The notes beneath the pieces were generated by a model. The model was not told the DNA's origin. It saw only the letters and a list, made by a program, of their open reading frames with translations, and did not search any database. A DNA stretch of 51,410 bases from an uncultured Clostridium sp. (GTDB lineage Bacteria > Bacillota > Clostridia > Oscillospirales > Oscillospiraceae), in contig CAJFVL010000005.1 in assembly GCA_904420465.1 (NCBI GenBank), positions 1 through 51,410 on the forward strand. The letters are read 5' to 3'. A program made the translations under genes and the position numbers. Below, in pieces: positions 7,079 to 40,453 of this stretch (positions within the stretch are counted from its first letter, which is position 1; every line of letters begins with the position of its first letter).

Positions 7079-7113
7079 ACAATTCTCCTTTCGACTTCCT
7101 GAATCCGGCTCTC

Positions 7114-14513: not shown

Positions 14514-15098
14514 ATGAATTCAACCATTCAGGATATTTTGTCCCGGCGCAGCATCCGCCGCTTCACACAGGAGGAGGTTTCAGAGCAGGACCTGGAGCTC
14601 ATCCTCCGGTGCGGCCTCTATGCGGCCAATGGCGGAAATCACCAGGTGGTGCGTCTCACCGCGATCCGCGACCGGGCGAAGCTGGACGAGCTGGTCCGGC
14701 TGGCCCGGGAGGAATTCATCCAAATGCCGATCATTGAGGGGCAGTACTGGAACACGGCGCTGCGCCGGGCGCGCAGCGCTCCCGATTCCTATGACTTTAC
14801 CTTCCACGCCCCCGTCCTCATTCTGGCCACGGCCCCCGCCGACTGGCCCAACGGGATGGCGGACAGCGCGGGGGCGCTGCAGAATATGCAGGTCGCAGCC
14901 TGGGCTCTGGGGCTGGGGGCCTGCTGGGTCAACCAGGTGCACTGGCTGACCAAAAACGCCCGGATTCGGGAACACCTCTCCCAGTACGGCTTTCAGGAGG
15001 GGGAGGACGTATACGGGAGCATCGTGCTGGGCCATCCCGACGGCCCCAGGCCGGACCCTCTGCCCCGAAAGCCGGGACGGGTCGCCATCATCCCATAA
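14514..15098 (+). CDS. Nitroreductase-family FMN oxidoreductase
   Basis: A 194-residue flavoprotein of the nitroreductase family. The N-terminal ILSRRSIRRFTQEEVSEQDL is the phosphate-binding RR/SIR motif that contacts FMN. AANGGNHQVVR and the later MQVAAWALGLGACWVN segment are equally typical, and GHPDGPRPDPLPRK is the C-terminal hallmark. It would reduce a small electrophile or quinone with NAD(P)H, or act as an ene-reductase on an unsaturated acid. The start at 14514 has an AGGAGG site. It lies 34 bases after the fumarase-type beta subunit and is part of the same operon. No redox substrate can be deduced. Confidence 0.88.
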   Translation: MNSTIQDILSRRSIRRFTQEEVSEQDLELILRCGLYAANGGNHQVVRLTAIRDRAKLDELVRLAREEFIQMPIIEGQYWNTALRRARSAPDSYDFTFHAPVLILATAPADWPNGMADSAGALQNMQVAAWALGLGACWVNQVHWLTKNARIREHLSQYGFQEGEDVYGSIVLGHPDGPRPDPLPRKPGRVAIIP

Positions 15099-16321: not shown

Positions 16322-17500
16322 TCAGTCCCGGACGTAAACATAGCCCTCCATAATCCTTCGGGCCGTCCGGTCCAGGTTGCCGCTGACCACCGTGTGGGTG
16401 CCGTCGGGGTTCTCCTTCAGGTCGGCATAGGCGTCCATAATCCCCCAGGGATGCCCGATCCGCACATGGGTGACCCGGTTGGAGGGGTTCCGCCCCCCGC
16501 CGCAGACGATCTCATTTACAAGCGTCCCCGGCGTGTTGGCTGCCGTCACGGTACAGATGGCTCCCGTCCCCATATAGGCGTCGATCATCTTCATGTTGAC
16601 CGAGAACAGGCGTCCCACCAGATCAATCTGGCCGGCCCCGATCTGCTTTCCGCTTCCGGCGGTATAGTCCACCGGCTTTGTGACAAACGCGATCTTGGGC
16701 AGCGTCTGGCTGTTTTTGCGGGCGTCCTCCAGATCCTTGGCAAAGCCCAGGGTGATGGCCCCGGTTCCCCGGATGATCTCCAGCTTTCTGCAGATCTCTC
16801 CGCAGTTGGGCAGGGCGTTGAACTGGGCGGGGGTCTCCGTCCCTGTGACGCCGAAATCCTCGGGGTGAACAAAGATCACCGGGTTGGCCGCGTCCACAAA
16901 GCTGTACTCATAGACCTTCCCCTCGATCTCAATGGTATCCTTCGGGCTGCCGGTGGGCAGAAGCTTTCCGGAGGCAGCCCCCTGCGGACCGACAAACTTC
17001 AGGGTGACCTTCGCGCCGGTGCCGGGCACTCCGTCGATGGCAAAGTCTCCTTCGGTCATGGCCCGCCCGTCCTTGACAGGCACCTGGGCGATGATCTCCT
17101 TTTGGGTGTTGGTGTTGAAGATATGGACCTCCGTCATGGGTTCCACCGCCTCCACCAGACCCTCGTCAATGGCAAAGGGTCCCACTGCCGAGGAGATATT
17201 GCCGCAGTTCATGGTCTTTCCCACGATGGGAGCCATCACGTCCACCTGGCCGAAGTCATAGTCCACGTCGATGCCGGGGCGCTGGCTCTTTTTGATGACC
17301 GCCACCTTGCTGGTGGAGGTATTGGCGCCCCCCATGCCGTCAATCTGCCGCCGGTCGGGGGAGCCGAAGGCACTGAGAATGACCTTGTCCCGCTCCTGCG
17401 GGTCCTGGGGCAGATCCCTGTCATGGAAAAACAGAGCCTTTGAGGTGCCTCCCCTCATATAGACACAGGGAATCTTTCTATTGGGTTTGTATTCTGCCAT
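16322..17500 (-). CDS. PrpF-family isomerase
   Basis: A 392-residue member of the PrpF family (diaminopimelate-epimerase-like fold). Relatives include 2-methylaconitate and aconitate isomerases, 3-methylitaconate delta-isomerase and 4-oxalomesaconate tautomerase. All move a double bond in an unsaturated di- or tricarboxylate. The conserved MRGGTSKALFF segment (residues 15-25) provides the lysine and substrate contacts. MNCGNISSAVG (C99) is the cysteine loop. Length is typical. It reads divergently from a LysR regulator and sits beside MmgE/PrpD, citrate lyase and LeuC/LeuD genes, so the substrate is probably an aconitate-like acid that must be isomerised before hydration and cleavage. The exact acid is open. 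Confidence 0.9.
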   Translation of the reverse strand: MAEYKPNRKIPCVYMRGGTSKALFFHDRDLPQDPQERDKVILSAFGSPDRRQIDGMGGANTSTSKVAVIKKSQRPGIDVDYDFGQVDVMAPIVGKTMNCGNISSAVGPFAIDEGLVEAVEPMTEVHIFNTNTQKEIIAQVPVKDGRAMTEGDFAIDGVPGTGAKVTLKFVGPQGAASGKLLPTGSPKDTIEIEGKVYEYSFVDAANPVIFVHPEDFGVTGTETPAQFNALPNCGEICRKLEIIRGTGAITLGFAKDLEDARKNSQTLPKIAFVTKPVDYTAGSGKQIGAGQIDLVGRLFSVNMKMIDAYMGTGAICTVTAANTPGTLVNEIVCGGGRNPSNRVTHVRIGHPWGIMDAYADLKENPDGTHTVVSGNLDRTARRIMEGYVYVRD

Positions 17501-17597
17501 GGGTATTCCTCCTTGCTGCCGCAGACAGGTTCAATTCCTCTGCTTACAGATATTTTTTTGATCCTCAAGCGAACCAACACAGAACGGAGTGGATGAT

Positions 17598-18581
17598 ATG
17601 TTCCAAAACTACGAATATTTTCTCGCTCTGGCCGAGACCCGGAACATCTCCCGGGCCGCCGAGCAGCTGTATGTCTCCCACCAGTGCCTCAGCCGCTACC
17701 TGAAAACCCTGGAACAGGAGTGCGGCCTGACTCTTTTCAACCGCAAGCCGGCGCTCTCTCTGACCTACGCCGGAGAGGTGATGCTGAAGGCCTTTCGGGA
17801 GGTTCAGCGGATTGAAAACAGCACCAGCCTGGCTCTGGCCGAGCTGAAGGACGGCAGTCTGGGAACCGTCCGCCTCGGCATTACCGAGGGGCGGCTGCGG
17901 ATCTTCCTCCCCGACCTGCTCAAGCAGTTCGGCATCCTGTATCCCAGCGTCACCCTGCAGGCGGTGGGCGCCCCCACGGCGGAGATGATCCGCTCCCTGC
18001 TGGACAACAAGCTGGATCTGGTTCTGGGCGGCTCTACGGACCAGGCCTGCCCGGGGCTGAAGTACGACACCATTCTGCAGGAAAACATGTACCTGATTGT
18101 CTCCGACCAGCTGCTGCGCCAGTACTTCCCCGACCGTTTTCCGGCCTGCAGGCAGGACTTTGCGGCGGGGGCGGACCTGCGGGAGTTTCAGTCCATGCCC
18201 TTCAGCATTGCCGCCCAGGGCTACCACTCCCGCACTATGGTGGAGGACCTGCTCCAGGCGTCAAACCTCTCCCTTAACATCATCTACGAGGCCCGCCAGC
18301 CCGACCTGCTCCACATACTGACCGCCCGGAACTACGCCGCCTCCTTCTGCCTGACCATGTACCTGCCCAATATTCAGGCGCTGAACCGCTCCGCGCCGGC
18401 GGACAACCAGCTGAACGTGTTCCCCATCCGGGGGCTGACCGCAAAGAATCCGGTCTTTCTCATCTCCCAGGAGGGGCGCTACATGCCCGACTACACAAAG
18501 GCCCTCATCCGGCTGATCCGCCAGCAGTGTCAGGACTGCTGCGCGGCAGGGGAGGAGCTTCTTCAGACAGCAGCTCCATAA
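17598..18581 (+). CDS. LysR-family regulator (prpF/citrate lyase locus)
   Basis: A 327-residue LysR-type regulator. Residues 1-60 form the winged helix-turn-helix (EYFLALAETRNISRAAEQLYVSHQCLSRYLKTLEQE region), followed by the two-lobed inducer-binding domain. The ATG at 17598 matches the usual LysR beginning; a GTG at 17589 is possible. It is divergent from the prpF-type gene with a 97-base gap, the classic arrangement for a LysR protein controlling its neighbour. Its 3' end overlaps the 3' end of the opposing PrpD gene by 77 bases. The inducer is likely the pathway substrate or intermediate, which is inference. Confidence 0.9.
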   Translation: MFQNYEYFLALAETRNISRAAEQLYVSHQCLSRYLKTLEQECGLTLFNRKPALSLTYAGEVMLKAFREVQRIENSTSLALAELKDGSLGTVRLGITEGRLRIFLPDLLKQFGILYPSVTLQAVGAPTAEMIRSLLDNKLDLVLGGSTDQACPGLKYDTILQENMYLIVSDQLLRQYFPDRFPACRQDFAAGADLREFQSMPFSIAAQGYHSRTMVEDLLQASNLSLNIIYEARQPDLLHILTARNYAASFCLTMYLPNIQALNRSAPADNQLNVFPIRGLTAKNPVFLISQEGRYMPDYTKALIRLIRQQCQDCCAAGEELLQTAAP

Positions 18582-19920
18582 CCGGGTCAATCCGCTCCAT
18601 TGTATCCAGCTCCCGGAAGTCCCGCACCAGCTGGTCCACCGCCGCCTCGGGCAGCAGCAGCTCCGCGTTCCTCCGGAATTTCTCCTCCAGCTCGGGCCAG
18701 CCCACGGGATTCCTGGGGGAGCCCTTCAGGTCGTACAGCTCTTTCTGATAGACCGCGCCGTCCTTCATCTGAATGGTCACCCTGGCCCCGCGTCTGGCCG
18801 GGAAGGCCGCCTGGACCTCCGGGTCGATGGAGCAGGCGACCCTGCGGGCCAGCGCCAGAATCTCAGGCTTGGTATACGACTGCTCCGTCAGGTGTCCCAC
18901 GCCGAAGCCGCCGTCCACCAGAGCCGCCGCCGCTCCATAGGCCAGGCTGAACTTCGCCTCCCCGGCGTTTTTCGGCTCGGCGATGTGCCCGGTCAGATCA
19001 TAGGCTACCTGGTGGGTCCCGATCTGAATCCTCTCCACCTCCTCCGGGTGAATGGAGTGTTCCCGCGCCAGGTCCAGAACCCCCTCGATGCCGGGCTGGG
19101 CGTGGCGGCAGCAGGGATAGAGCTTGTTGTAGGTGTCTCCGATGGAGTAGACCTCACCCAGCCCGCGGCAGACATCCTCCACATCCACGTCGGCCGACTG
19201 GGTCTGGAAGAGCCCGTCCTTCCCCTCCAGGGCTGACAGGCAGCCCTCCATGCCGCTTTGTGCAAGGTATGCGGCGAAAATTCCATTGTAGGCGGCATTT
19301 CCCACCTGAACGCACTTGGAGCGCTGGCCGGAGCGGGTGGCCTCCATGGTGCCGCTGGCCAGCATTCCGGCCTGCCCCAGGGCGGCTGCCAGCTGCTCCG
19401 CGTTCAGCCCCATCAGATACCCCGCGGCGGCGGCCGCTCCATAGACGCCGCAGTTGCTGGAGGGATGGAAGCCCCGGTTGATCTGGTTGGGGTTGACATG
19501 GGCGGCAATGCGGTAGGTCACCTCATACCCCGCCGCCACGGCGGCAATGACCTCCCGGCCGGTGCGGCCCAGGGCCTGCCCCATCACCAGGGCGGTGGGG
19601 ACCACCACAGCCCCCGCGTGGCAGCCCGCGTTCTTGTGTCCGTCATCCAGCTCCAGAGAATGGGCGTAGACGGCGTCAATCATGGCGGCCCGGGCGGCCG
19701 GGAAGCGCCGTCCGGGCGCCCCGATGATGGAATAATCCCCCGTCCCCAGGGACAGGCCGACCTGCTCCAGATTCCGGGCGTACTCCCAGTTTCCTCTCCC
19801 CGCCAGCGCCGCCCCCACGGTATCCATGATCCGCTCCTTCGCCTGGGATATCGCCTCGGGGGGCAGCTTTTCACAGGTCAGGCCGGCGATGAAGGCGGCA
19901 AACTTCTGCGTCAAAAACAT
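18505..19920 (-). CDS. MmgE/PrpD-family protein
   Basis: A 471-residue MmgE/PrpD-family protein, a fold that includes 2-methylcitrate dehydratase and cis-aconitate decarboxylase. It has the two-domain family pattern: the helical N-terminal domain holds DTVGAALAGRGNWE, DAVYAHSLELDDGH and HPSSNCGVYGAAAAAG, and the smaller domain follows with CRHAQPGIEG and KFSLAYGAAAALVDG. Length fits PrpD. It is the last gene of the leftward leuC-leuD-citD-citE-citF series, 39 bases after citF, with a GAGGAG site. It may dehydrate a citrate-like substrate, or take it in the reverse direction. Together with PrpF it is the part of the operon not expected in a normal citrate fermentation locus. Confidence 0.9.
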   Translation of the reverse strand: MFLTQKFAAFIAGLTCEKLPPEAISQAKERIMDTVGAALAGRGNWEYARNLEQVGLSLGTGDYSIIGAPGRRFPAARAAMIDAVYAHSLELDDGHKNAGCHAGAVVVPTALVMGQALGRTGREVIAAVAAGYEVTYRIAAHVNPNQINRGFHPSSNCGVYGAAAAAGYLMGLNAEQLAAALGQAGMLASGTMEATRSGQRSKCVQVGNAAYNGIFAAYLAQSGMEGCLSALEGKDGLFQTQSADVDVEDVCRGLGEVYSIGDTYNKLYPCCRHAQPGIEGVLDLAREHSIHPEEVERIQIGTHQVAYDLTGHIAEPKNAGEAKFSLAYGAAAALVDGGFGVGHLTEQSYTKPEILALARRVACSIDPEVQAAFPARRGARVTIQMKDGAVYQKELYDLKGSPRNPVGWPELEEKFRRNAELLLPEAAVDQLVRDFRELDTMERIDPVMELLSEEAPPLPRSSPDTAGGSAG

Positions 19921-19959
19921 GGCTGACTCTCCTCGCTTATCTTGATCCCTCCGGCGGGC

Positions 19960-21516
19960 TTACCGCTTGATCTGCCGGATCACGTCAATGACGGTCCCGT
20001 CCCGGTACTCCACAACGCAGGTGATCCGGTCGGTTGTCTCAATGGGCTTGGGCACTCCGGTCATGGACTCCGCCAGCTCCTGAAGGGCCTGGATGGTGGT
20101 GAGCCTGAGGGAGGAGTGCTCCAGGTCCTCTTTCAGCTCCTGGTAATTCCGGTGTTTGGGATTGAGGGCAACACCAGCCTCGGTGACAACAGCGGCCACC
20201 GTCTCTCCCGGGGTACACAGGGTAAAGACCCGCTTGACCACGGAGGGGGTCCGCCCCCGGATGATGGGCAGGGTCACAATGGAGATGGCCGCGCCGCCCG
20301 CCACGTCCGGACCTCCGCCCAGTCCGCCCATCATTTCGCCGGAGGAGCCTGTCAGGATGTTGACGTTGAAATCGGTGTCCACCTCCAGGGCGCCCAGAAC
20401 GCCGAAGTCCTCCCGGTTCAGGAAGCCTCCCTTAGTGTAGGCGTTGGCATAGTCCGCGTTGTCGATCTCCACCACGCCCGGCCGGTCAAAGATGGCCCGG
20501 GCGGCCACCGCGTCAAAGCTCTGGCTGCACTCTACCGCCCGCACCAGTCCCTCGTCGTACATGTCAATGATGGCGGCAGGGATTCCCCCCAGGGCAAAGC
20601 TGGCCTTGACCCCCCGCTCCCGCATCCGGTCCGCCAGATACTTGGTGGCCGCAATGCTGATGGCCCCGGCTCCGGTCTGGAAGGAGAAGCCATCCCGGAA
20701 CCGGCGGGAGGCCGCGATCAGATCCACCGTGCGCTGGGCGATCAGCAGATCCCTGGGGTTTTTGGTCAGCCGGGCCGCCCCCGCCCCGATCTTCGCCGGG
20801 TCGCCGATGGAGTCCACCCGCACAACATAGTCCACATACTGCTGGGAGATGCTGGCCGGCAGACAGGGGTAATCCACCAGATTGTCGGTGATGACAATCA
20901 CACAGCGGGCATGATGGGCGTCCACAAAGGAGTAGCCCATGGCGCCGCAGGCGTTGGGGCCGATCTGCCCCGTGCAGTTGCCGTAGTCATCTGCGGCGGA
21001 GGCCCCGATAAAGGCCACGTCGATGGTCAGCTCGCCGGACTCGATGGCCCGGGGCCGGGCCCCGTGGGGCCGGAGGATGACGGGATTCTCCATCTCGCCG
21101 GCCAGAACGGCGTCCCCCAGCTGGCCGCGGATGCCGCTGGCCTCGATGCGGTCAATGGTCCCGTCCCGGACAAAATCCACAATGGAGGGCTCCTTGATGT
21201 TCACCACGGCGCTGGGTGCGAAGCGAAGCCCCTTGATCCCCAGCTCGCGGATGGCGGTCAGCACCTGCCCCACAATCTGGTCCCCCTCCCGGAAGGAGTG
21301 GTGGAAGGAGATGGTCATGCCGTCCTCCAGACGGGCGGCAAGGATAGCCTCCTTCAGGCTGCCCACCAGTTTGGACTCCCCGGGGACCCGGTGGCCCGCC
21401 GTGCGCCGGGTCACAACAGGGCCTGTATCAGGCAGCGGCTCATAGGGACCGGCGTAGGGGCGTACACGGTACGTTCCAATTTGTTCCGGAAGCTCCCGGC
21501 CAAGACTGTTTTTCAT
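19960..21516 (-). CDS. citF: Citrate lyase alpha subunit
   Basis: A 518-residue citrate lyase alpha chain, the acyl-ACP:citrate ACP-transferase that exchanges acetyl for citryl on the acyl carrier subunit. Family segments are plain: the N-terminal SLKEAILAARLEDGMTISF and HHSFREGDQIVG, then VDVAFIGASAADDYGN-type CoA-transferase loops and the C-terminal LCTPGETVAAVVTEAGVALNP. Length is normal. The ATG overlaps the citE stop by four bases (ATGA), showing translational coupling. It follows citD and citE in the canonical D-E-F order. The true substrate could be citrate or an analogue made by the neighbouring isomerase and hydratases. Confidence 0.95.
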   Translation of the reverse strand: MKNSLGRELPEQIGTYRVRPYAGPYEPLPDTGPVVTRRTAGHRVPGESKLVGSLKEAILAARLEDGMTISFHHSFREGDQIVGQVLTAIRELGIKGLRFAPSAVVNIKEPSIVDFVRDGTIDRIEASGIRGQLGDAVLAGEMENPVILRPHGARPRAIESGELTIDVAFIGASAADDYGNCTGQIGPNACGAMGYSFVDAHHARCVIVITDNLVDYPCLPASISQQYVDYVVRVDSIGDPAKIGAGAARLTKNPRDLLIAQRTVDLIAASRRFRDGFSFQTGAGAISIAATKYLADRMRERGVKASFALGGIPAAIIDMYDEGLVRAVECSQSFDAVAARAIFDRPGVVEIDNADYANAYTKGGFLNREDFGVLGALEVDTDFNVNILTGSSGEMMGGLGGGPDVAGGAAISIVTLPIIRGRTPSVVKRVFTLCTPGETVAAVVTEAGVALNPKHRNYQELKEDLEHSSLRLTTIQALQELAESMTGVPKPIETTDRITCVVEYRDGTVIDVIRQIKR

Positions 21517-22412
21517 GTTGCCTCACCCCCAAACCGAATTCCTGCCGCAGCCGCCTTGGCCAGGGTGGCCCGGGCCCGCAGCTCCATGGGCTTATCCACC
21601 ATGCTGCCGTCCAGGGTGCACACGCCGGTGTGGCTGCGCGCGGCCTCCTCCAGCGCCTCCAGCACCCGCACCGCATTTCGGATTTCCTTTTCCGTCGGCG
21701 TGAAGCAGGCATTCACCGGATCAATCTGCCGCGGGTGGACGCAGGTCTTGCCGTCAAAGCCCAGCGTCCGGGTCATCTCCAGATCCTTCTCCAGTCCCTC
21801 ACTGTCGTCCAGGTCAGAGAACACCGCGTCCTGGGCGGAGATCCCCGCCTCCCGGCAGGCCAGCAGCACCGCGTTGCGGGCGTAAAAGATCTCCCAGCCC
21901 GGCTTGGTGCGCCGGGCGTTCATGCTGGCGGTAAAGTCCTCCGCGCCCAGGGCCATGGCCGCCACCCGGGGGCTGGCCTTCGCAATGGCCCGGGCGTTCA
22001 GCACCCCCTGATAGGACTCGATGTTGCACCACAGCTTGATTTCTCCCTGGGGCAGGCCCGCCCTGGTCTCAATCTCCGTAATCTTTTGGTCAATGGAGAC
22101 CACCTCCTCGGGGTACTCCACCTTGGGAACCCGGATGGCGTCCGGCCGTGCGCGGACCACTGCCTCCAGATCCTCGGCCAGCTCCTTGGAGTAGATGCCG
22201 TTGACCCGCACCACAATGTACTTGTCCCGGGGACGCTGGTACTTCAGGATATTGTAGACCAGCAGCCGGGCGGCGTCCTTCTCCTCCGCCGAGACCGAAT
22301 CCTCCAGGTCGTATACCAGACAGTCCTCGTTATAAAATCCGGCCTGAATCATTTTCACCGGGCTGCTCCCCCCGGCATAGAGGGAGGTGCGCATCAGTTC
22401 ACTTTTCTCCAT
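21513..22412 (-). CDS. citE: Citrate lyase beta subunit
   Basis: A 299-residue CitE-type citryl-ACP lyase of the HpcH/HpaI-related TIM-barrel family. It cleaves citryl-ACP to acetyl-ACP and oxaloacetate with a divalent metal. Conserved segments are RTSLYAGGSSPVKMIQAG, DCLVYDLEDSVSAEEKDAAR, LWCNIESYQGVLNA and GFDGKTCVHPRQIDPVN; the metal ligands are the acidic residues in DLEDSV, NIES and AEDF. The ATG at 22412 has an AAGGAGG site, so 26 extra upstream codons in frame are unlikely to be used. The gene overlaps citD by 14 bases and citF by four. Confidence 0.95.
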   Translation of the reverse strand: MEKSELMRTSLYAGGSSPVKMIQAGFYNEDCLVYDLEDSVSAEEKDAARLLVYNILKYQRPRDKYIVVRVNGIYSKELAEDLEAVVRARPDAIRVPKVEYPEEVVSIDQKITEIETRAGLPQGEIKLWCNIESYQGVLNARAIAKASPRVAAMALGAEDFTASMNARRTKPGWEIFYARNAVLLACREAGISAQDAVFSDLDDSEGLEKDLEMTRTLGFDGKTCVHPRQIDPVNACFTPTEKEIRNAVRVLEALEEAARSHTGVCTLDGSMVDKPMELRARATLAKAAAAGIRFGGEAT

Positions 22413-22707
22413 GGGGGTCCTCCTTTTCCCAGGGGAAGGCCAGCTCCGCCGCGCGGCAGACGGCGCACTCCATCCGGGCCCGGATGGCAAAGTCCAACGC
22501 TCCCTTGTCGTGGACCTCCACCAGGGCGTCCGTCACCTGAAACTCCTCCAGCACCGCGCGGAGGGTCCGTTCAATGGCCTCGCCGAACATCGCCTTCACG
22601 TCGCTGTGCAGATTGATCTGAATTCCCCCGCCGGGGTTGGGATAAAGGGAAATCTGTACGTCGCTGGACTCCAGCGTCCCGGCCATCGCGGGCTTCTTCA
22701 GCGTCAT
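22399..22707 (-). CDS. citD: Citrate lyase acyl carrier subunit
   Basis: A 102-residue CitD protein, the acyl carrier of citrate lyase. The attachment serine for the phosphoribosyl-dephospho-CoA prosthetic group is predicted at S14 in AGTLESSDVQI, the standard CitD motif. The rest (NPGGGIQINLHSDVKAMFG and the ALVEVHDKGALD stretch) is typical. It overlaps leuD upstream by four bases and citE downstream by 14, so all are one translational unit. It is loaded by the CitX-CitG fusion and CitC encoded across the divergent promoter. Confidence 0.95.
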   Translation of the reverse strand: MTLKKPAMAGTLESSDVQISLYPNPGGGIQINLHSDVKAMFGEAIERTLRAVLEEFQVTDALVEVHDKGALDFAIRARMECAVCRAAELAFPWEKEDPHGEK

Positions 22708-23231
22708 AGGCTCGCCCCCTTCGCCTGCTTCTTCATATAGGAGAACAGCCCGCCGGCCTGCATGATGTCCCGCTCCAGGTCGCTGACCGCGTCCCCGTGG
22801 AGCACCGCGCCGGTATCCACATCCCGGACAGTTCCGCTCTCCAGATCCACCTCCAGCTGATCTCCTGTGCGGATCTCGCCCCGCTGAATCGCCTGGGACA
22901 TCCCCTTGATGAACAAAACGGGGTATCCGTTGTTGATGGCGTTCCGGTAATAAATGCGGGAGCAGGTCTCCACCAGAAGGCAGGGCACCCCGGCGTACTG
23001 CAGACAGTACACCGCGTGCTCCCGGCTGGAGCCGCAGCCAAAGTTCTTCCCCGCCACCACAAAGTCGCCGGGTTTGACTTCCTTTGCAAAGCGCTCCATA
23101 CCCGGATAGTACTCAAAGGCGTACTGAGGCATCTGTCCGGGGTCCGTCTCCGCCAGATACTTGTTATGATAGATCAGGTCGGTGTCCACATCATCGCCGA
23201 ACACCCAGGCCCGGCCCGTCTGCTTGCTCAT
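22704..23231 (-). CDS. LeuD-type hydratase small subunit (second copy)
   Basis: A 175-residue aconitase-superfamily swivel subunit of the LeuD/DmdB type. Unlike the copy at 2.9 kb it keeps the canonical loop GCGSSRE (65-71), plus [10 protein letters not shown] near the N-terminus and the [11 protein letters not shown] segment. It starts 13 bases after its large subunit and overlaps citD by four bases. Being inside the citrate lyase operon strongly suggests it hydrates an unsaturated tricarboxylate to the lyase substrate, rather than acting in leucine synthesis. Candidate reactions are cis-aconitate to citrate, or a methylated or chain-extended analogue; which one is inference. Confidence 0.9.
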
Positions 23232-23244
23232 GACAGAACCTCCC

Positions 23245-24525
23245 TTAGTTCAGAATATCCCGGGGATCTGTGATGCAGCCCCGGATGGCCGTGGCCATGG
23301 CGGCCATGGGGGAGAGCAGATAGGTGTGGCTGCCCTTGCCCACCTTGCCGATGAAATTCCGGTTGTTGGTGGCCACTCCCACGTCTCCCGCCGGAAGGGC
23401 CCCATAGTGCTCCGCTGTGCACAGGGCGCAGGTGGGGTTTGTGAACACCACCCCGGCCATCAGGAAGTCCTGGACCAGACCGTCCCGGACACATTTCAGC
23501 TGCACCTCCGTGGTGCAGGGGGTGATGATGACCCGGGTATTGGGGTCCACTTTGCCGCCGCCCGCCATCAGCACCTCATGGGCCGCCCTGATATCCTCAT
23601 AGCGCCCATTGGAGCAGGAGCCGATGTGGACCTGGTCCACATGGACGCCCGCCACCTCCCGAACCGGCCTGACATTGTCCGGCGCGTCCGGACAGGAGGC
23701 CATGGGCTCCAGCTGGCTGACGTCGTACTCCAGCACCCGGCAGTACTCCGCGTCCGGGTCGGCGGACAGGGCGCGGACCCGCTCCCGCACCTCGTCGCCC
23801 GCCCGCTCCGTCAGCCACTCCAGCACCGGGCCGCCGGGCATGATCAGGGGCACCTTGCCGCTCATCTCGGTGACCATGGAGCACAGGGTGATCCGCTCGG
23901 CCAGGGAGGCCCGGTCAATGGTCTCCCCCACGAATTCCACCGCCAGATAGTCCATTCCGCCGGCTCCCAGGTCGCCCACGATTTTGGTCAGCAGGTCCCT
24001 CATGCAGGTGCCCCTTGGGAACTCGCCCCTGACCACAATCTTCATGGTCTCCGGAACCCGAAACCAGCAGGTGCCGTTGACGTAGGCGGCCGCCACATCG
24101 GAGTTGCCCACTCCCGTGGCAAAGGCGCCCACCGCCCCCAGCAGATTCATGTGACTGTCCGTTCCCAGCACCACGTCGCCGGGCTTGATCAGCCCCGCCT
24201 CCAGCATCACATGCTGGCCCACGCCGTGGTTGATGTCAAACAGGTGGGGAATCCCCTGGCGCTTTGCAAATTCCCGAATGATTTTCTGGTTGTTGGACAC
24301 CTTCTCTGAGTGGGAGGGAGCCTGAAGGTCGAAGGTGAACGCCACCTTGTTGGGGTCCCACACCCTGGCCTCCTTCCCCATCTCCTGCTCAAACTGAAGG
24401 ACGCAGTTCGCCCCTCCGAAGTCCCGGGCGGAGGCCAGGTCCACATTGCACCAGACCCGCTCGCCCACCTGGACCGGCCGCCCGGCGGCACGCTCCATAA
24501 TTTTTACGATGGCTGTTTTTCCCAC
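23245..24525 (-). CDS. LeuC-type hydratase large subunit (second copy)
   Basis: A 426-residue LeuC/DmdA-type iron-sulfur hydratase subunit. The cluster ligands are in GSCSNGR (C304) and TCALC (C366, C369). GTDSHMNLLGAVGAFATG and the end SPMAAMATAIRGCITDPR are canonical. I start at the GTG at 24525 (preceded by AAAGGAG): it gives MGKTAIVKIMERAAG, the usual LeuC beginning. A farther upstream ATG at 24726 would add 67 unlikely residues. It is the first gene of the leftward operon leuC-leuD-citD-citE-citF-prpD. The gene order itself argues that hydration by this enzyme feeds citrate-lyase-type cleavage. Confidence 0.92.
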   Translation of the reverse strand: MGKTAIVKIMERAAGRPVQVGERVWCNVDLASARDFGGANCVLQFEQEMGKEARVWDPNKVAFTFDLQAPSHSEKVSNNQKIIREFAKRQGIPHLFDINHGVGQHVMLEAGLIKPGDVVLGTDSHMNLLGAVGAFATGVGNSDVAAAYVNGTCWFRVPETMKIVVRGEFPRGTCMRDLLTKIVGDLGAGGMDYLAVEFVGETIDRASLAERITLCSMVTEMSGKVPLIMPGGPVLEWLTERAGDEVRERVRALSADPDAEYCRVLEYDVSQLEPMASCPDAPDNVRPVREVAGVHVDQVHIGSCSNGRYEDIRAAHEVLMAGGGKVDPNTRVIITPCTTEVQLKCVRDGLVQDFLMAGVVFTNPTCALCTAEHYGALPAGDVGVATNNRNFIGKVGKGSHTYLLSPMAAMATAIRGCITDPRDILN

Positions 24526-24583
24526 TGTGCGCTGCTCCTTTCCATCTGCTCCAACGGCTGACACAGCCCTTTTTGATGCCTTT

Positions 24584-24612
24584 ATGTTACACAGAAAAGA
24601 GGGCGCTGGAAA
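24584..24612 (-). promoter_or_regulatory. Candidate promoter of the leftward cit operon
   Basis: Read leftward, TTTCCA (24607-24612) and TAACAT (24584-24589) stand 17 bases apart, each four of six to consensus. Transcription would begin about 50 bases before the leuC GTG. Support is only positional. Confidence 0.35.
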
Positions 24613-24637
24613 GCAGAAGATTTTTGACGGACTGCAC

Positions 24638-24684
24638 CTTTTTGTTGCACCCGCTTCAAGGGATTTCTGGAACTTTTTGTTGCA
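24638..24684. repeat. Direct repeat in the divergent cit promoter
   Basis: CTTTTTGTTGCA occurs exactly twice, at 24638-24649 and 24673-24684, 35 bases apart, between the divergent leuC and amidohydrolase genes. Such spacing suits a regulator binding two sites on one DNA face. The LysR protein at 17.6 kb or an unlinked regulator could be the binder. Confidence 0.5.
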
Positions 24685-24725
24685 GGCCGGCACGTTTCTT
24701 TTGCTTTTCTTTGGTCTCTGTCCCA

Positions 24726-24734
24726 TGCTATAGT
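24726..24734 (+). promoter_or_regulatory. Extended -10 promoter of the amidohydrolase-citC operon
   Basis: TGCTATAGT at 24726-24734 is a good extended -10 element, 39 bases before the chosen start at 24773. The -35 region is weak, which suggests activator dependence. Confidence 0.4.
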
Positions 24735-24772
24735 AGGCTTAAACGATACCATATCAGCCAGGAGGAATGATC

Positions 24773-25603
24773 ATGGAACACACGGCGGCTCTGTCCTTTG
24801 AAATGCCCCGAAACGCCTGCAACGCGCACCTTCACATCATAGACCCCGCCTTTCCCAACGATGGAAAGGCCGCGGCCCAGGCCGGCACAGTGGAGGACTA
24901 CGCCGGCATTGCCCGGCGGTTTTCCCTGCCCCGGGCCGTGTTTGTTCAGGCCAAGCCCTTTGGACTGGACAACGCCTGTCTGCTGGACGCAATCGCCCGC
25001 TTCGGCGCCGGCAGCGCCCGGGGCATCGCCGTGCTCAACAGCACCGTCTCTGACCAGAAGCTGGAGTGGCTCCACGCCCGGGGCGTCCGTGGCCTGCGCT
25101 TCAGCGTCTGGAACCCGGAAAATGCCGTTGTCTCCTTCGACGACTGCCTGCCCCTGGCCCGGCGGATTCAGCATCTGGGCTGGAACGTGCAGCTGCACAT
25201 GAGCTCGGCCCAGCTGATCCAGCACGCGGAGGTCATTGAGCAGCTCCCCTGCCGGGTGGTCGTTGATCACATGGGGCGGCTGGACCCCCGGCTCGGCACC
25301 CGAGATCCCGCATACCCTCTCCTCTGCCGGTGGATCGACCAGGGCAACACCTGGGTCAAGCTGTCCGGCCCCTATCTCAACACCGCCTCGGGATTCCCCT
25401 GGGAGGACGCCGCCGCCACCGCCCGGGCCATTGCCGAATTCGCCCCCCAGCGCGTGGTATGGGGCAGCGATTTCCCCCATGTGACAGAGCGGCAGAAGCC
25501 TGACGAGGCCTGCCTGGTCGAGCTGATCGCCCAGTGGCTCCCCACCTCCCAGGCGAGGCAGCTGGCCCTGGCGGACAACCCTCAGGAGCTTTACGGCTTC
25601 TGA
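24773..25603 (+). CDS. LigI-like amidohydrolase
   Basis: A 276-residue TIM-barrel metal-dependent hydrolase of the amidohydrolase-2 family. It most resembles 2-pyrone-4,6-dicarboxylate lactonase (LigI) and related lactone hydrolases. Metal or substrate residues are visible in NAHLHIIDP, RAVFVQAKPFG, RGLRFSVW, VVVDHMGR and VWGSDFPHV. I use the ATG at 24773, seven bases after AGGAGG; an ATG six bases upstream is too close to that site. It heads the operon with citC and citX-citG, so it likely opens a lactone or hydrolyses an ester that yields the tricarboxylate used by the citrate-lyase-type complex. That link is inference. Confidence 0.85.
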   Translation: MEHTAALSFEMPRNACNAHLHIIDPAFPNDGKAAAQAGTVEDYAGIARRFSLPRAVFVQAKPFGLDNACLLDAIARFGAGSARGIAVLNSTVSDQKLEWLHARGVRGLRFSVWNPENAVVSFDDCLPLARRIQHLGWNVQLHMSSAQLIQHAEVIEQLPCRVVVDHMGRLDPRLGTRDPAYPLLCRWIDQGNTWVKLSGPYLNTASGFPWEDAAATARAIAEFAPQRVVWGSDFPHVTERQKPDEACLVELIAQWLPTSQARQLALADNPQELYGF

Positions 25604-25621
25604 CCCCGGGAGGGTAAACTT

Positions 25622-26674
25622 ATGGACACATCCATTGACGAGCTGAGGCTGGAGCGGCTGTCCCTGCGGTATCCCCGGGACCGGGCACGGCTTGCGGACT
25701 TCCTGGCCCGGCATCACCTGAAGCTGGAGGAGGATGTCCAGTCCGCCTTTGTCCTGCTGGACGGGTCAGAATCCCTGGCCGCCTGCGGCTGCGCGGCCGG
25801 GTCCGTTCTGAAATGCTTTGCGGTGGAGCCCTCCCTGCGAGGACAGAACGCCCTTGGCCGTCTGGTGTCCGCCCTGGTGCAGGACCGCTTTGCCCGTGGA
25901 ATCTATGACCTCTTTATCATCACCCGGGCGGAAAACGAGGCGCTGTTCCAAAACTGCGGCTTTTACCCGGTGGTCCGCACCCAGGCGCTGGCTATGCTGG
26001 AAAACCGTCCCAACGGTCCCCGCCTGTTTGCCCAGGGACTGAAGCGGCCGGAGGACGCGGGGAAGCAGGCCGCCGCCATTGTCATGAACTGCAACCCCTT
26101 TACCTTGGGCCACCAGGCGCTGGTTGAATTTGCCGCCCGCCGCTGCGAGCTCCTCCATATCTTCCTGGTGGAGGAGGACCGCTCCCTCTTCCCCACCCCT
26201 GTGCGCTACCAGCTGGCCGCCGAAGGGACTGCCCACCTGCCCAACGTCCGCCTCCACCTGAGCGGCCCCTATGTCATCTCCGCCGCCACCTTCCCCACCT
26301 ACTTTGTCAAGGCCCAGGAGAATGCCGCCCTTCTGCAGGCCCAGCTGGACGTCACCCTGTTTGCGGAAAAGCTCGCGCCAGAGCTCCACATCGTACAGCG
26401 CTTTGCCGGCCAGGAGCCGCTTGACCCCACAACGGCCGGCTACAACCACACGATGCGCACACTTCTCCCACGATATGGTATTCATTTCTGTGAGTTTCCC
26501 CGAGTCATGCAGGACGGCCAGCCCATCAGTGCCTCCCGCGTCCGGAATCTGCTGGAGAGCCGGGGGGTGTGCGATGAGGTGCTCGCCCTTGTCCCGGAGT
26601 CCACAGGCCGCTATCTGAAGGACAACTGGCCGCTGAAGCCCCAACGCAGCGGCGCACACCCCCCCTTCCTCTAA
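25622..26674 (+). CDS. citC: [Citrate (pro-3S)-lyase] ligase
   Basis: A 350-residue CitC protein. It acetylates the prosthetic thiol of CitD with ATP and acetate, switching citrate lyase on. The N-terminal ~140 residues form a GNAT-like domain (FAVEPSLRGQNALGRL is its CoA-loop relative). The rest is a nucleotidyltransferase fold with the motif NCNPFTLGHQ (156-165) and the late SASRVRNLLES segment, which corresponds to the ISSTxVR signature of the superfamily. Length is normal. It starts 18 bases after the amidohydrolase. Its presence shows that the complex in this locus is a true acetyl-thioester enzyme. Confidence 0.95.
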   Translation: MDTSIDELRLERLSLRYPRDRARLADFLARHHLKLEEDVQSAFVLLDGSESLAACGCAAGSVLKCFAVEPSLRGQNALGRLVSALVQDRFARGIYDLFIITRAENEALFQNCGFYPVVRTQALAMLENRPNGPRLFAQGLKRPEDAGKQAAAIVMNCNPFTLGHQALVEFAARRCELLHIFLVEEDRSLFPTPVRYQLAAEGTAHLPNVRLHLSGPYVISAATFPTYFVKAQENAALLQAQLDVTLFAEKLAPELHIVQRFAGQEPLDPTTAGYNHTMRTLLPRYGIHFCEFPRVMQDGQPISASRVRNLLESRGVCDEVLALVPESTGRYLKDNWPLKPQRSGAHPPFL

Positions 26675-26687
26675 AAGGAGGTCCCCG

Positions 26688-28052
26688 ATGAGCGTGGAGG
26701 TCGCCCCCATGGACATGCTGAGGGCCCGGGAGGCCCGGGCCCTCCGGCAGCAGGAGATTCTGGCGCGCTGTCGCCGCCCTGTCATCTCCTTCACCATGAA
26801 TATTGCCGGGCCTGTCAAAAACAGCCCGGTCATCCGCCGCGCCTTTCGGGAGGGCATGCTCCGGCTGGAGGATGTCCTGGCCGCCCGCGGTCTGCCCACC
26901 CTTTTCCGGGAGGAGACGGACCGCCCCACCGGCTGCGAGGCCCTGTGGGTGGTGGACGGTCCCAGCCGCATTTTGAAGGAGCTCTGCACCGGAATCGAGG
27001 ACCGGGACTCTCTGGGCCGCCTCTTTGACCTGGACGTGCTGGACCCGGAGACAGGCCGGTGGGGGAGAGAGGAGCTGGGCCTTCCGGCCCGGGGGTGTCT
27101 GGTGTGCGGCCGTGCAGGAAAGGGCTGCTCCTCCCGGCGTCTCCATCCGGTGGAGGAAATCCGGCAGAAAACAGATGCCATTCTGTGGGATTTCTTTGCC
27201 CGGCAGGACCGGGCCCGGCTGGCCGCCCTCGCCGGAAAGGCCCTGCTCTATGAGGTATGCACCACGCCCAAGCCGGGTTTGGTGGACCGGCATGACAGTG
27301 GCAGTCACCGAGACATGGACGTGTTCACCTTTCTGGACAGCACCGCCGCCCTTCTCCCCTACCTGGAGCGCGCGGCGGCCATCGGCCAGGAGACCGCCCA
27401 GAGGCCGCCGGAGGAGACCTTCTCCCTGCTGCGGGAGGCCGGCCTGGGGGCGGAGCGGGATATGTTCCAGGCCACCCGGGGAGTGAACACCCACAAGGGG
27501 GCCATTTTCTCTCTTGGCTGTGTCCTGGGGGCCGCCGGGCGGCTCTGGACCCCGGAGGGGCCCTGCCGGGACCCGGAGCGAATTCTGGCGGAATGCGGGA
27601 ACATGGCAGCTCCCGCCGTGGATCAGACGTTCTCCGCGCTGACATTGGAACATGCCCGCACCGCAGGGGAGCGGCTCTATGTCATGTATGGCCTGCGGGG
27701 GGTGCGGGGGGAGGCGGCAGACGGCTTTCCCTCCGTCCTCCAGATCGGCCTGCCTGCCCTCCGGGCCGCTCTGGACCAGGGGGCGGGGCTGGAGGAGGCG
27801 GGGACTGCCGCCCTCCTTGCCCTGACAGCCCGAACCGCGGATACCAATCTGATCGCCCGGGGCGGAACGGAGGGGCAGCGGTGGGCGGCGGAGCGGGCGG
27901 CCAGCCTATTGGCCCCCGGACCGCGGCCGGACCGCGGGGCGGTGGAGCAGCTGAACCGGGAGATGATCGGGAAAAATCTCTCCCCCGGCGGCTGTGCCGA
28001 CCTGCTGGCCATCGTCTACTGGCTGACCTTTCTGCTGTCCGAATCCACTTGA
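26688..28052 (+). CDS. citXG: CitX-CitG fusion for citrate lyase prosthetic group
   Basis: A 454-residue two-domain protein. Residues about 1-175 are CitX, apo-citrate lyase phosphoribosyl-dephospho-CoA transferase (GCEALWVVDGPSRILKELC and RLFDLDVLD segments, then a cysteine-rich RGCLVCGRAGKGC). Residues about 180-454 are CitG, triphosphoribosyl-dephospho-CoA synthase (EVCTTPKPGLVDRHDSGSH, ATRGVNTHKGAIFSLG, DTNLIARGG). It makes the prosthetic group from dephospho-CoA and ATP and attaches it to CitD. Fused CitXG proteins are known elsewhere. The ATG has an AAGGAGG site 14 bases after citC. A strong hairpin follows. Confidence 0.93.
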   Translation: MSVEVAPMDMLRAREARALRQQEILARCRRPVISFTMNIAGPVKNSPVIRRAFREGMLRLEDVLAARGLPTLFREETDRPTGCEALWVVDGPSRILKELCTGIEDRDSLGRLFDLDVLDPETGRWGREELGLPARGCLVCGRAGKGCSSRRLHPVEEIRQKTDAILWDFFARQDRARLAALAGKALLYEVCTTPKPGLVDRHDSGSHRDMDVFTFLDSTAALLPYLERAAAIGQETAQRPPEETFSLLREAGLGAERDMFQATRGVNTHKGAIFSLGCVLGAAGRLWTPEGPCRDPERILAECGNMAAPAVDQTFSALTLEHARTAGERLYVMYGLRGVRGEAADGFPSVLQIGLPALRAALDQGAGLEEAGTAALLALTARTADTNLIARGGTEGQRWAAERAASLLAPGPRPDRGAVEQLNREMIGKNLSPGGCADLLAIVYWLTFLLSEST

Positions 28053-28230: not shown

Positions 28231-28767
28231 TCAATTGTTTTCACAGAGGTGGACACATCCCGCCGCGATGGAATCACACTTGGCGACAATGATAGCCTCG
28301 GGGCTCTTGTTGGGCATGCTGAGCTTTGCAGTGTGGGAGGCCACGATGTGGGTAATTTCCAGTGGGATTTGATACTTCTGACACAGGGCGACGCCATAGA
28401 TGCCGTGGGATATCAGTTTTCCCCAACCTGTCCGGCCGCCAGAGGCGGAATATTCCACAATCTTGCAAACATCATGGAGCAGCGCACCCGCCACAACATA
28501 GTCCACATTCAGCGGAGCGGGCTCCATCTCATTGTAAGCCTGGGTCACCGCATAGCTGTACTGAGTCACCAGGGCCACATGGTGGACAAAGCTAAAACGG
28601 CGGGGGTCCGCGCCCGGCATGAAGGGGATGTCCTCCAGCCGCTCCCAGTCCGACTGGGAGCAGGCCTCCAGCCAAATGTCCAGCACCGTTTCCTGCAGGC
28701 CGACATCCCGGATAAGGGAAAACTGGGGCAGCAACTTACATAGCTGTTCCTTGGTGATTGAGATCAC
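28231..28767 (-). CDS. HD-domain phosphohydrolase
   Basis: A 178-residue HD-superfamily hydrolase. The metal-binding histidines and aspartate are visible in VHHVALVTQYS, GALLHDVCKI and THIVASHTA. Length and pattern fit small HD proteins that act on nucleotides or related phosphates. I start at a GTG at 28767, preceded by GGGAGG; a TTG at 28785 overlaps the HpcH stop and would place that site inside the gene. It is the last gene of the leftward TctABC operon, and its role there is unknown. Similar HD proteins occasionally sit with HpcH-type aldolases and transporters, but I cannot assign a reaction. Confidence 0.8.
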   Translation of the reverse strand: MISITKEQLCKLLPQFSLIRDVGLQETVLDIWLEACSQSDWERLEDIPFMPGADPRRFSFVHHVALVTQYSYAVTQAYNEMEPAPLNVDYVVAGALLHDVCKIVEYSASGGRTGWGKLISHGIYGVALCQKYQIPLEITHIVASHTAKLSMPNKSPEAIIVAKCDSIAAGCVHLCENN

Positions 28768-28781
28768 AGAGTGCACCTCCC

Positions 28782-29540
28782 TCAATCGCAGCGGAGTTCT
28801 TCCAGACTCTCCTTCATGGCTGAGAAGAGCAGCGTCTCATCCCGGCCCAGGGAGAAGCACCTAACTCCCTTCTCCTTCAGCTCCTGAATTCGTTTTTTGC
28901 TCTTGACCATCAGAGTGGGATACTTGCCATACTCCAGAGCCTTGCGGATGACCAGGTCCTCGGCGGCCAGAACGTCTGGATGGCTATTCTGCCCCGGGAT
29001 GCCCAGCGCCTGGGACAGGTCATTTTTCCCGGTAGCCACCATGTCGACACCTGGGACAGACAGGATGTCGTCAATGTTCTCCAACCCGGACTTATCCTCG
29101 ATCTGGACGATCAGGGTGACGTCATCGTTGGCCCAGGTGGAGTAGTCGCTCATCTTGTACTGGCCAAAATTCAGGGCCCGGGAGGCGCCGCTCATGCCCC
29201 GCTGTCCGTAGGGGGCATATTTGGTGGCCTGTACGGCCTGCTCCGCGATCTGGCGGCTGGCCGTATGTGGGACCATCAGGCCGCTGGCACCTAGATCCAG
29301 CAACGCACTGGCGTTGCTCAGGTCGGGAACTCGCAGCTGTACCGGCAGATCCAACAGCCGGGCGGCCCGGATCATGTCCATAAGAGTTCCATTATCGAAC
29401 AGCATGTGCTCGCAGTCGATGCGGATGAAGTCATAGCCCGCCCGAGCTGCCATTTCCACTATTACTGGATCGCTCAGGCCCACATTGAGACCGTAGCTGC
29501 ACAGGCCCGCGGCCGCGCGCTCCTTGATGTTCTTTCTCAT
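28782..29540 (-). CDS. HpcH/HpaI-family aldolase
   Basis: A 252-residue class II metal-dependent aldolase of the HpcH/HpaI/GarL family. It typically splits 4-hydroxy-2-oxo acids to pyruvate and an aldehyde or keto acid. Hallmarks are DFIRIDCEHMLFDNG, the LGASGLMVPHTAS segment, the metal ligands in VQIEDKSG and GKNDLSQALG, and the PYGQRGMSG loop. Length is normal. It lies four bases downstream of the tctA-type gene, so substrate uptake and cleavage are co-expressed. A pathway with a hydroxyacid dehydrogenase making the 2-oxo acid and this aldolase cutting it would be coherent, though unproven. Confidence 0.9.
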   Translation of the reverse strand: MRKNIKERAAAGLCSYGLNVGLSDPVIVEMAARAGYDFIRIDCEHMLFDNGTLMDMIRAARLLDLPVQLRVPDLSNASALLDLGASGLMVPHTASRQIAEQAVQATKYAPYGQRGMSGASRALNFGQYKMSDYSTWANDDVTLIVQIEDKSGLENIDDILSVPGVDMVATGKNDLSQALGIPGQNSHPDVLAAEDLVIRKALEYGKYPTLMVKSKKRIQELKEKGVRCFSLGRDETLLFSAMKESLEELRCD

Positions 29541-29543
29541 GAT

Positions 29544-31061: not shown

Positions 31062-31076
31062 GGCAAGACCTCCCGA

Positions 31077-31505: not shown

Positions 31506-31565
31506 AGTTGTCCCTCCTTACAGATGGGCCCTCCGCACGGAGCAGAGGGCCCCGCGGCTTCTCTT

Positions 31566-32558: not shown

Positions 32559-32600
32559 AGTTCAAATCCTCCTCACTTTTTCATTATTTTTCTCTATTCC

Positions 32601-33581: not shown

Positions 33582-33628
33582 GTACGATTTCCTCCTTATA
33601 TTTAAAATATGAAAGACAACCAATCCGT

Positions 33629-38139: not shown

Positions 38140-38163
38140 AGGGTCCCCTCCTTACTCCCGGCC

Positions 38164-38192
38164 AGTATAGGTCAGATCCGGAATAAAATCAA
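38164..38192 (-). promoter_or_regulatory. Promoter of the NifS-like and xdhC-type genes
   Basis: Read leftward, TTGATT (38187-38192) and TATACT (38164-38169) are 17 bases apart. Transcription would start close to the TTG at 38139, giving a very short leader. Confidence 0.65.
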
Positions 38193-38242
38193 ACAGGTTT
38201 TTTTAGATATTATCGAAAATAGGGTTGGACAGTGTCCCTCCT

Positions 38243-38262: not shown

Positions 38263-38289
38263 AAACATCCGTACAGGAGGGACGCCATC

Positions 38290-40440: not shown

Positions 40441-40453
40441 ACGCCCTTTGGAG

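Follow-up and report, generated by a model that had tools for sequence, protein, structure and literature searches.

A recurrent gene cluster linking CitDEF, an altered LeuCD, and a lactonase in an uncultured Clostridium sp.: a candidate route for a branched, lactone-forming acid

The window, i.e. the whole stretch of DNA analysed here, is one entire contig of 51,410 bases (C5) from the draft genome of an uncultured Clostridium sp. (G000; 2.35 Mb, completeness 88.6%). It contains a cluster in which the genes for a citrate lyase-type enzyme (CitDEF) are joined to those for a LeuCD-like hydro-lyase, a PrpF-family isomerase, and a LigI-like lactonase. With a probability of a little under one half (about 0.45), we propose that this cluster encodes a coenzyme A (CoA)-independent route in which an isomerase, a hydro-lyase, and a lyase acting on acyl carrier protein (ACP) produce acetate and a 2-oxo acid from a short, branched acid able to form a lactone. 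An earlier note on this DNA had described a complete CitDEF, CitC, and CitXG set split by a divergent promoter, with leuC and leuD ahead of citD, PrpD after citF, a LysR gene and PrpF nearby, and a LigI-like gene heading the other arm; Pfam and NCBIfam scans confirmed each of these genes at its position.

Gene layout and predicted reactions

The cluster comprises the following features.
23245..24525, minus strand: LeuC-like large subunit of an aconitase/isopropylmalate-isomerase family hydro-lyase, active site altered (PF00330; PRK00402, 435.6 against a cut-off of 385)
22704..23231, minus strand: LeuD-like small subunit, GSSREHA base loop kept (TIGR02087, 160.8 against 108.95)
22399..22707, minus strand: CitD, acyl carrier subunit (TIGR01608, 106.5 against 63.5)
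21513..22412, minus strand: CitE-type C-C lyase subunit of a divergent clade (PF03328; TIGR01588, 308.2, under the cut-off of 443.4)
19960..21516, minus strand: CitF, acyl-transferase subunit of the same divergent clade as CitE (TIGR01584, 580.7 against 501.45)
18505..19920, minus strand: MmgE/PrpD family protein (PF03972/PF19305; catalytic positions HEHHKK)
17589..18581, plus strand: LysR regulator (Pfam; a relative, 41–55% identical, stands beside PrpF in related loci)
16322..17500, minus strand: PrpF-family delta-isomerase, nearest to Mii (3-methylitaconate isomerase) (Pfam, similarity search)
24767..25603, plus strand: LigI-like lactonase of the amidohydrolase superfamily (PF04909)
25622..26674, plus strand: CitC, lyase acetate ligase (TIGR00124, 269.6 against 262.1)
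26688..28052, plus strand: CitX-CitG fusion, which makes and loads the CitD prosthetic group (PF03802 and PF01874)
24633..24649, no strand: candidate LysR operator 1, dyad TGCACC-N5-GTTGCA (11/12 match to the promoter pattern)
24668..24684, no strand: candidate LysR operator 2, dyad TGGAAC-N5-GTTGCA (35 bases from operator 1)
14514..15098, plus strand: nitroreductase-fold protein, a putative accessory member (homologues, 38–49% identical, in or near four related clusters)

The left arm (LeuC, LeuD, CitD, CitE, CitF, and PrpD) is encoded on the minus strand and the right arm (LigI-like, CitC, and CitX-CitG) on the plus strand. LeuC starts at a GTG codon at 24525, preceded by AAAGGAG, and a listed open reading frame (ORF) reaching 24726 is overlong. 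The coding regions of LeuD/CitD, CitD/CitE, and CitE/CitF overlap, and those of LeuC/LeuD and CitF/PrpD are separated by 13 and 39 bases, respectively. Because LysR and PrpF diverge from each other behind the left arm, PrpF is placed outside the citF transcript.

From this gene content, the reactions, their order, their regulation, and their substrate are predicted as follows. The PrpF/Mii-type isomerase would shift a double bond in a methylene- or alkenyl-succinate, or interconvert cis and trans forms, and hydration by the LeuCD-like Fe-S hydro-lyase, with its altered pocket, would yield a tertiary hydroxy acid, R-C(OH)(COOH)-CH2-COOH. With CitC charging it and CitXG providing its prosthetic group, CitDEF would exchange this hydroxy acid onto the acyl carrier protein and cleave it to acetyl-ACP and R-CO-COOH, while the LigI-like lactonase would supply the lyase by opening the lactone of the same hydroxy acid or of a precursor. 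The LysR protein would control the divergent promoter. The group R most probably differs from the carboxymethyl group found in citrate, and the itaconate/citramalate/itatartarate class is the first choice; with modest confidence, a branched C5-C6 acid of this class is preferred over citrate.

A separate lyase clade and an altered LeuC active site

Trees were built from 42 CitE and 51 CitF sequences, omitting L052 and L083 (copies of the window), matches shorter than 230 (CitE) or 380 (CitF) residues, and identical sequences. In both trees, the window falls in a clade with support of 100/100, which contains 17 (CitE) and 19 (CitF; L096 repeats L006) sequences on stems of 1.19 and 0.93, respectively. 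This clade lies apart from eight ordinary citrate lyases, assigned by host and neighbouring genes, and from L040, a citramalate lyase by its context (a MAL match, CitG, CitDEF, and CitC, with mutase genes recognized by eye); the sister placement of the ordinary citrate lyases and L040 is supported at 92/82 in the CitE tree and weakly (70/27) in the CitF tree. The window shares its subunits and accessory genes with citrate lyase, and its CitF, CitD, and CitC exceed the curated cut-offs, with CitX and CitG domains also present, whereas its CitE stays below that of the curated citE equivalog and its neighbours are LeuCD, the LigI-like gene, and PrpF. Beside the ES motif, CitE of the clade reads W-C-N where ordinary sequences read M-A-A (one sequence deviates at some positions). 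The acidic ES and GAED motifs of CitE are themselves kept, and we take them to be Mg ligands, which fits a 2-oxo acid product.

In 10 of the 18 genomes carrying window-type CitF, one or more second CitF genes of 42–45% identity were found, and in L015 both types stand side by side in one locus. This second CitF argues that the window lyase is not just another citrate lyase. The citramalate lyase of the methylaspartate pathway (reference L040) has the same architecture, but the window differs from it in its CitE/CitF clade and in the LeuCD genes of its operon. The methylaspartate pathway was rejected because G000 contains no MAL match (0 matches) and its CitE falls in another clade than that of L040.

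The LeuC alignment contains 41 sequences, i.e. 10 clade copies and 31 others that came from searches rather than a planned sample of the family, and omits near-identical copies, matches of ≤300 residues, and those of <25% identity. In mAcn numbering, His101 is replaced by Leu and His147 by Gln in all 10 clade copies, whereas both are His in all 31 others. Arg452 is replaced by Lys in nine of the 10 (the tenth, L068, is garbled there) and is Arg in 31/31 others. The Fe-S cysteines are retained (Cys358 and Cys424 in 10/10; Cys421 in 9/10, L068 again being garbled there), as are Asp100, Asp165, Ser166, His167, and Arg447 in all 10 copies, and new His residues were found close by in sequence, in GQH and APSH, in a further alignment omitting L052 and matches of ≤330 residues. 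The consulted portion of PMC8184944 counts 20 active-site residues shared by every aconitase but aconitase X, assigns protonation of the leaving hydroxyl to His101, and places Asp165, His167, and His147 in the hydrogen-bond network at the fourth iron.

The nearest solved relatives of LeuC/LeuD are the isopropylmalate/citramalate isomerase of M. jannaschii (350/154 bits) and then its homoaconitase (257/121 bits), and the scores stay below those of the 3-isopropylmalate dehydratase equivalogs (348 vs 611 for LEU2, 187 vs 560 for leuC, and 137 vs 246 for leud). In the LeuD alignment, from which matches of ≤120 residues were omitted, the clade shows its own 12-residue signature followed by AFEYYPG, and two extra residues in EYYPG are absent from the other sequences. 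In homoaconitase, the small subunit has an important Arg in its YLRT loop; the clade reads YLAE against YLR in the M. jannaschii enzyme, Ala thus replacing this Arg, and does not class with homoaconitase. Window-type LeuCD shares its family, Fe-S ligands, and base loop with LeuCD, homoaconitase, and citramalate isomerase but differs in His101, His147, Arg452, and the LeuD signature, and by sequence it looks like a distinct subfamily.

In an alignment omitting L083, L052, L121, and matches of ≤300 residues, the window PrpF keeps Lys73 and Cys107, listed as catalytic in Shewanella PrpF in the consulted text of PMC5690661. It is most similar to Mii (332 bits), followed by PrpF proper (270) and the oxalomesaconate isomerases (199), and misses the PrpF and 4-oxalomesaconate tautomerase equivalogs (313 and 308, respectively, vs 440). 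In the nicotinate fermentation of Eubacterium barkeri, Mii is paired with DmdAB, a LeuCD-type hydratase. The window resembles this system in its Mii-nearest PrpF-family isomerase and its LeuCD-type protein, but its lyase is of the CitDEF type rather than a dimethylmalate lyase, and no mutase was seen beside it.

The PrpD-family protein scores 138 bits with IDS-epimerase, 133 with cis-aconitate decarboxylase, and 34 with 2-methylcitrate dehydratase. In an alignment omitting near-identical copies, matches of ≤300 residues, and those of <24% identity, it keeps five of the six catalytic residues that the consulted part of PMC12290011 lists for IDS-epimerase (H85, D88, H99, H150, K198, and K266), D88 being Glu in the window and four orthologues. 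Its score with the curated prpD model is 44.9 against 458; by similarity it is not a 2-methylcitrate dehydratase, and a 2-methylcitrate route is weakened accordingly. The LigI-like protein of the window keeps the His/His/His/Asp set and Arg124, whereas Arg130 and Arg217 are absent from it and from the relatives aligned, and it is not a LigI proper. We take the former four residues to be catalytic and the three arginines to bind the substrate; since two of these are missing, its substrate probably carries fewer carboxylates than 2-pyrone-4,6-dicarboxylate does. A 2-pyrone (LigI) route, which requires oxygen upstream, was set aside on both counts.

Distribution and gene order of the cluster

A search of genome contigs with CitF returned 51 loci, 18 of which (L001–L016, L047, and L050) are 68–86% identical to the window, whereas the other 33 are 38–48% identical. 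By record label, the hosts of the 18 include Oscillospiraceae, Acidaminococcus, Oribacterium, [Clostridium] symbiosum, Peptococcaceae, Desulfovibrio, and others. Window-type LeuC is present in ten copies in nine genomes (G000, G786 twice, G787, G788, G790, G791, G802, G1061, and G1156). Six of the 17 genomes in the close-CitF group carry it at 81–89% identity, i.e. G786 (two copies), G787 (in two pieces), G788, G790, G791, and G802, and a search of 400 genomes of the family gave three matches including the window, thereby adding G1061 and G1156, both of the window's genus. No further window-type LeuC was detected at E ≤1e-100 in 394 genomes of the order, ten other LeuC matches in 398 genomes of the phylum were merely 40–44% identical, and only G788 and G787 carry the gene among 299 genomes of the family of G788. 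In the 10 genomes listed for the window's genus, window-type LeuC and CitF co-occur in the same three (in G1061, CitF of this type consists of two contig-edge pieces only), and neither occurs in the remaining seven, two of which have the 43–44% identical type as their sole CitF.

By label, the carriers belong to at least two families, Oscillospiraceae and Acidaminococcaceae, and probably to further ones. Since the module is rare and patchily distributed, horizontal transfer is suggested, i.e. the cluster may be a transferable module. Pseudoflavonifractor sp. 60 (G786) seemingly has two locus copies (L001 and L002) and G1061 perhaps two (L165 and L166, with two CitF ends at contig edges), and rumen-sample labels are attached to some lyase relatives (L005 and L016).

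The order LeuC-LeuD-CitD-CitE-CitF is complete in six of the 10 LeuC copies (window, G787, G788, G790, G791, and G1156) and cut by contig ends in three (G786 twice and G1061). The LigI-like gene adjoins LeuC in all copies but that of G802; eight of these pairs are divergent, whereas in G788 the two genes share a strand. Next to the LigI-like gene, CitC and CitXG are found in the window, one G786 copy, G787, G788, and G1061; in the second G786 copy, CitC is followed by the contig end, and neither gene stands beside the LigI-like gene in G790 and G1156. On the G787 contig (L003/L068), the reading frames of LeuC, the LigI-like gene, CitXG, and LysR are apparently broken.

Behind citF, PrpF (79–90% identical) was found in eight of the nine loci readable past citF, with LysR between them except in G788. 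Three of these eight (L001, L002, and L005) start at or inside citD/citE, so that their own LeuC lies off the contig; the genome of L005 (G789) gave no LeuC match at E ≤1e-40. A PrpD-family gene directly follows citF only in the window and L006, where it is a different paralogue (28% identical). Orthologues of the window PrpD (53–65%) are linked to the cluster in G788, G790, G791, and G1156, as in the window itself, and G786 and G787 gave no PrpD match at E ≤1e-20. PrpF behind citF is a more conserved feature than PrpD after citF. The earlier note had proposed leuC-leuD-citD-citE-citF-prpD as the conserved order and had named its lack of conservation in relatives as evidence against its claim. 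The order recurs from leuC to citF, prpD not being part of it, which answers that objection. The set is a conserved unit and does differ, as that note maintained, from an ordinary citrate-fermentation locus.

In G825, which belongs to the genus of G790, LigI-CitD-CitE-CitF stand together without LeuCD, next to a MatC/CitMHS transporter, an order that ties the lactonase directly to the lyase. Other neighbours within the lyase clade are a two-subunit fumarase/tartrate-dehydratase-type hydro-lyase in L141 and a weak fumarase-like match in L047. An ADP-ribosylglycohydrolase gene (L009, 7664-8656, scanned) precedes CitDEF of the clade and is found by likeness also in L010 and L012, whereas L008 has a similar gene past citF, on the opposite strand; sugar-type ABC transporter genes seem, by eye, to lie near these loci. 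In the archaeal loci L019, L022, L023, L028, L030, and L045 (mostly Thermoplasmata by label), CitF is directly followed by a LeuC that is 34–41% identical to that of the window (a 97-residue piece only in L022), an independent pairing of citrate lyase and LeuC.

The dyad of the divergent promoter, TGCAAC-N5-GTTGCA, was derived from these same intergenic regions, so that its figures are descriptive and not an independent test. Two dyads 35 to 37 bases apart occur in the window, G790, G1061, and both G786 copies (one of each G786 pair being weaker), and operators 1 and 2 are the only sites in the window with ≥11/12 matches. Two dyads are 23 bases apart in G1156, a single dyad is present in G791 and, upstream of LigI, in G788, and no clear dyad was seen in the G787 and G802 regions. 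Among the prpF-lysR regions of the window, G786 (twice), G787, G791, and G1156, a dyad upstream of PrpF is clear in G791 only.

Competing routes and significance

Several observations weigh against the proposed route. Without His101 and His147, LeuCD may no longer be capable of any hydration, and the loop of the window PrpF (GGANTSTSK) resembles that of PrpF (GGATSSTSK) rather than that of Mii (AGADPLTSK), a likeness to aconitate-type isomerases. The CitDEF of Oribacterium L009 nests inside the LeuCD-linked subclade, and its genome lacks window-type LeuC (best match, 38%). G802 has a different order (CitF, CitXG, LeuC, LeuD, and nitroreductase) with no adjacent LigI-like gene, and no PrpF was found within the stretch read of Acidaminococcus L006. 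In addition, the transporters vary among the clusters (TctABC-like, CitMHS/MatC, glutamate symporter, and, by eye, TRAP-like), so that no single substrate is indicated, and no residue identifies the substrate.

Fermentation of trans-aconitate (or isocitrate lactone), in which PrpF would convert trans- to cis-aconitate, LeuCD would form citrate, and CitDEF would release acetate and oxaloacetate, appears unlikely; it is the proposal of the earlier note at its simplest. Aconitate isomerases of the PrpF superfamily do exist, i.e. TarA/TbrA (PMC11495376) and Adi1 (PMC4720413), as described in the consulted parts of these sources, and TctABC and CitMHS transporters are present in the window. This route is opposed by the Ala that replaces the homoaconitase Arg in LeuD, by the changed pocket of LeuC with its two missing catalytic histidines, and by the CitE score and clade. 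Furthermore, in the genus of G790 (labelled Acidaminococcus provencensis), all nine genomes have a CitF of 41–44% identity, and only two of the nine also have the window type. These points apply equally to the tricarboxylate substrate of the earlier note, which they disfavour, whereas its order of isomerisation, hydration, and cleavage is sensible and is kept in our proposal. Also against the aconitate route, the Pfam scan of window ORFs, which did not extend to every ORF or to the remaining genome, showed no oxaloacetate decarboxylase domain. A hydroxycitrate lactone is chemically possible as a substrate, but no evidence supports it, and the search of open-licence literature found nothing on it in bacteria.

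Somewhat less probable is that the module forms the lower part of a longer route from an alcohol, aldehyde, or ring compound, as in nicotinate fermentation, in which a molybdenum (Mo) aldehyde oxidoreductase and reductases would make the acid and the LigI-like protein would open a ring before the isomerase, hydro-lyase, and lyase act. In G1156, PrpF is followed on the same strand by PrpD, a TctABC-like set (TctB by position), an old-yellow-enzyme-like reductase (its three best model matches all below the cut-offs), a Mo enzyme, and a nitroreductase. The G791 cluster also contains a nitroreductase and a Mo enzyme 66% identical to that of G1156; the G791 enzyme passes the aldehyde-oxidoreductase model NF045668 (1166 vs 1100) and has a Fe-alcohol dehydrogenase beside it, and the window itself has selenium (Se)/Mo cofactor genes at 36-48 kb. 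However, no match to this Mo enzyme was obtained at E ≤1e-80 in seven of the nine carriers (G000, G786, G787, G788, G790, G802, and G1061), several of which are drafts.

It is improbable that LeuCD has no hydro-lyase activity and serves in substrate binding, a different elimination, or decarboxylation. This reading draws on the replacement, in all 10 copies, of two of the three catalytic His positions (101 and 147, with 167 kept) and on the role in leaving-hydroxyl protonation ascribed to His101 in the consulted text of PMC8184944. Against it stand the other pocket residues retained in LeuC, including the Fe-S cysteines, and the Ser base loop of LeuD, and because the new histidines lie close by in sequence, the acid-base groups may merely have moved. 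An ordinary citrate-fermentation locus with chance neighbours is very improbable, typical though its CitF, CitD, CitC, and CitXG are, given the neighbours conserved in distant genomes, the lyase clade, and the second CitF; the arrangement exceeds chance because it recurs in other genomes, and pure chance grouping is already refuted by this recurrence.

Further organic-acid and cofactor genes were found elsewhere in the window. At 28231-34573, adjoining the cluster, a minus-strand operon-like run (DUF6282, D-2-hydroxyacid dehydrogenase, TctC, TctB, TctA, HpaI-like aldolase, and HD protein) represents another organic-acid pathway. The partly low-GC block at 1550-9750 encodes a CitMHS transporter, a D-2-hydroxyacid dehydrogenase, a CoA-transferase, a thiolase, and an HMG-CoA-synthase-like protein with a zinc-ribbon end, together with a second LeuD/LeuC-like pair (2910-4693) that is 26–27% identical to the LeuC of relatives. 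The HMG-CoA-synthase-like and thiolase genes (7-10 kb) and the Mo aldehyde oxidoreductase of relatives raised the idea of an HMG/mevalonate pathway, which was set aside because CitE keeps the presumed Mg ligands for a 2-oxo acid product. The Se/Mo cofactor cluster at 35924-47759 consists of genes for XdhC-like, class V aminotransferase, AIR-synthase-type (SelD-like, with a Se/S carrier domain), YqeC, molybdopterin-binding, MoaC, MoaA-like, and MOSC plus molybdopterin-binding proteins and an ABC transporter (SBP_bac_11, permease, and ATPase), and suggests a selenium-dependent Mo hydroxylase. In other genomes, L055, L060, and L061 contain LeuCD with a YLEL loop after a LarA-like gene, preceding a malic-enzyme-like gene in L060 and L061 (by eye), and a maleate hydratase route to malate is possible there.

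Among described systems, the P. aeruginosa itaconate/branched dicarboxylate cluster resembles the window in joining a lactonase and a MmgE/PrpD isomerase to a C-C lyase and in acting on branched C5 acids (PMC9875883 and PMC12290011, consulted parts). It differs in being CoA-dependent and in its small Rdo-type lactonase, and the relevant text names no LeuCD or PrpF. The part consulted of PMC9875883 lists a 2-hydroxyparaconate lactonase and the MmgE/PrpD isomerase in that cluster; dehydration of itatartarate is attributed by its authors, as a speculation, to an aconitase-like enzyme. The AcnD/PrpF and CitE-like genes of Arcobacter, as given in the consulted text of PMC2147049, are arranged differently from those of the window. 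Our search of open-licence literature, which is no proof of absence, found no description of the present cluster: its parts belong to known families, and that literature describes neither their combination nor the altered LeuC nor the separate lyase clade. There is a real chance of a new pathway. More tentatively than the general route, we suggest a new CoA-independent fermentation of a branched, lactone-forming acid, e.g. itaconate or 2-hydroxyparaconate/itatartarate, which would combine a new aconitase subfamily with relocated catalytic histidines and a new specificity of ACP-dependent lyase.

Automatic annotation would probably assign these genes to leucine biosynthesis and citrate fermentation, which we judge misleading. 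If the proposed route is correct, the cluster would give these bacteria a transferable pathway for an acid with no known anaerobic fate, possibly one that has antibacterial or immune roles, such as itaconate or its lactone. It would also extend the citrate-lyase family by a new substrate and the aconitase superfamily by an enzyme functioning without two histidines that are reported, in the consulted text of PMC8184944, as conserved outside aconitase X.

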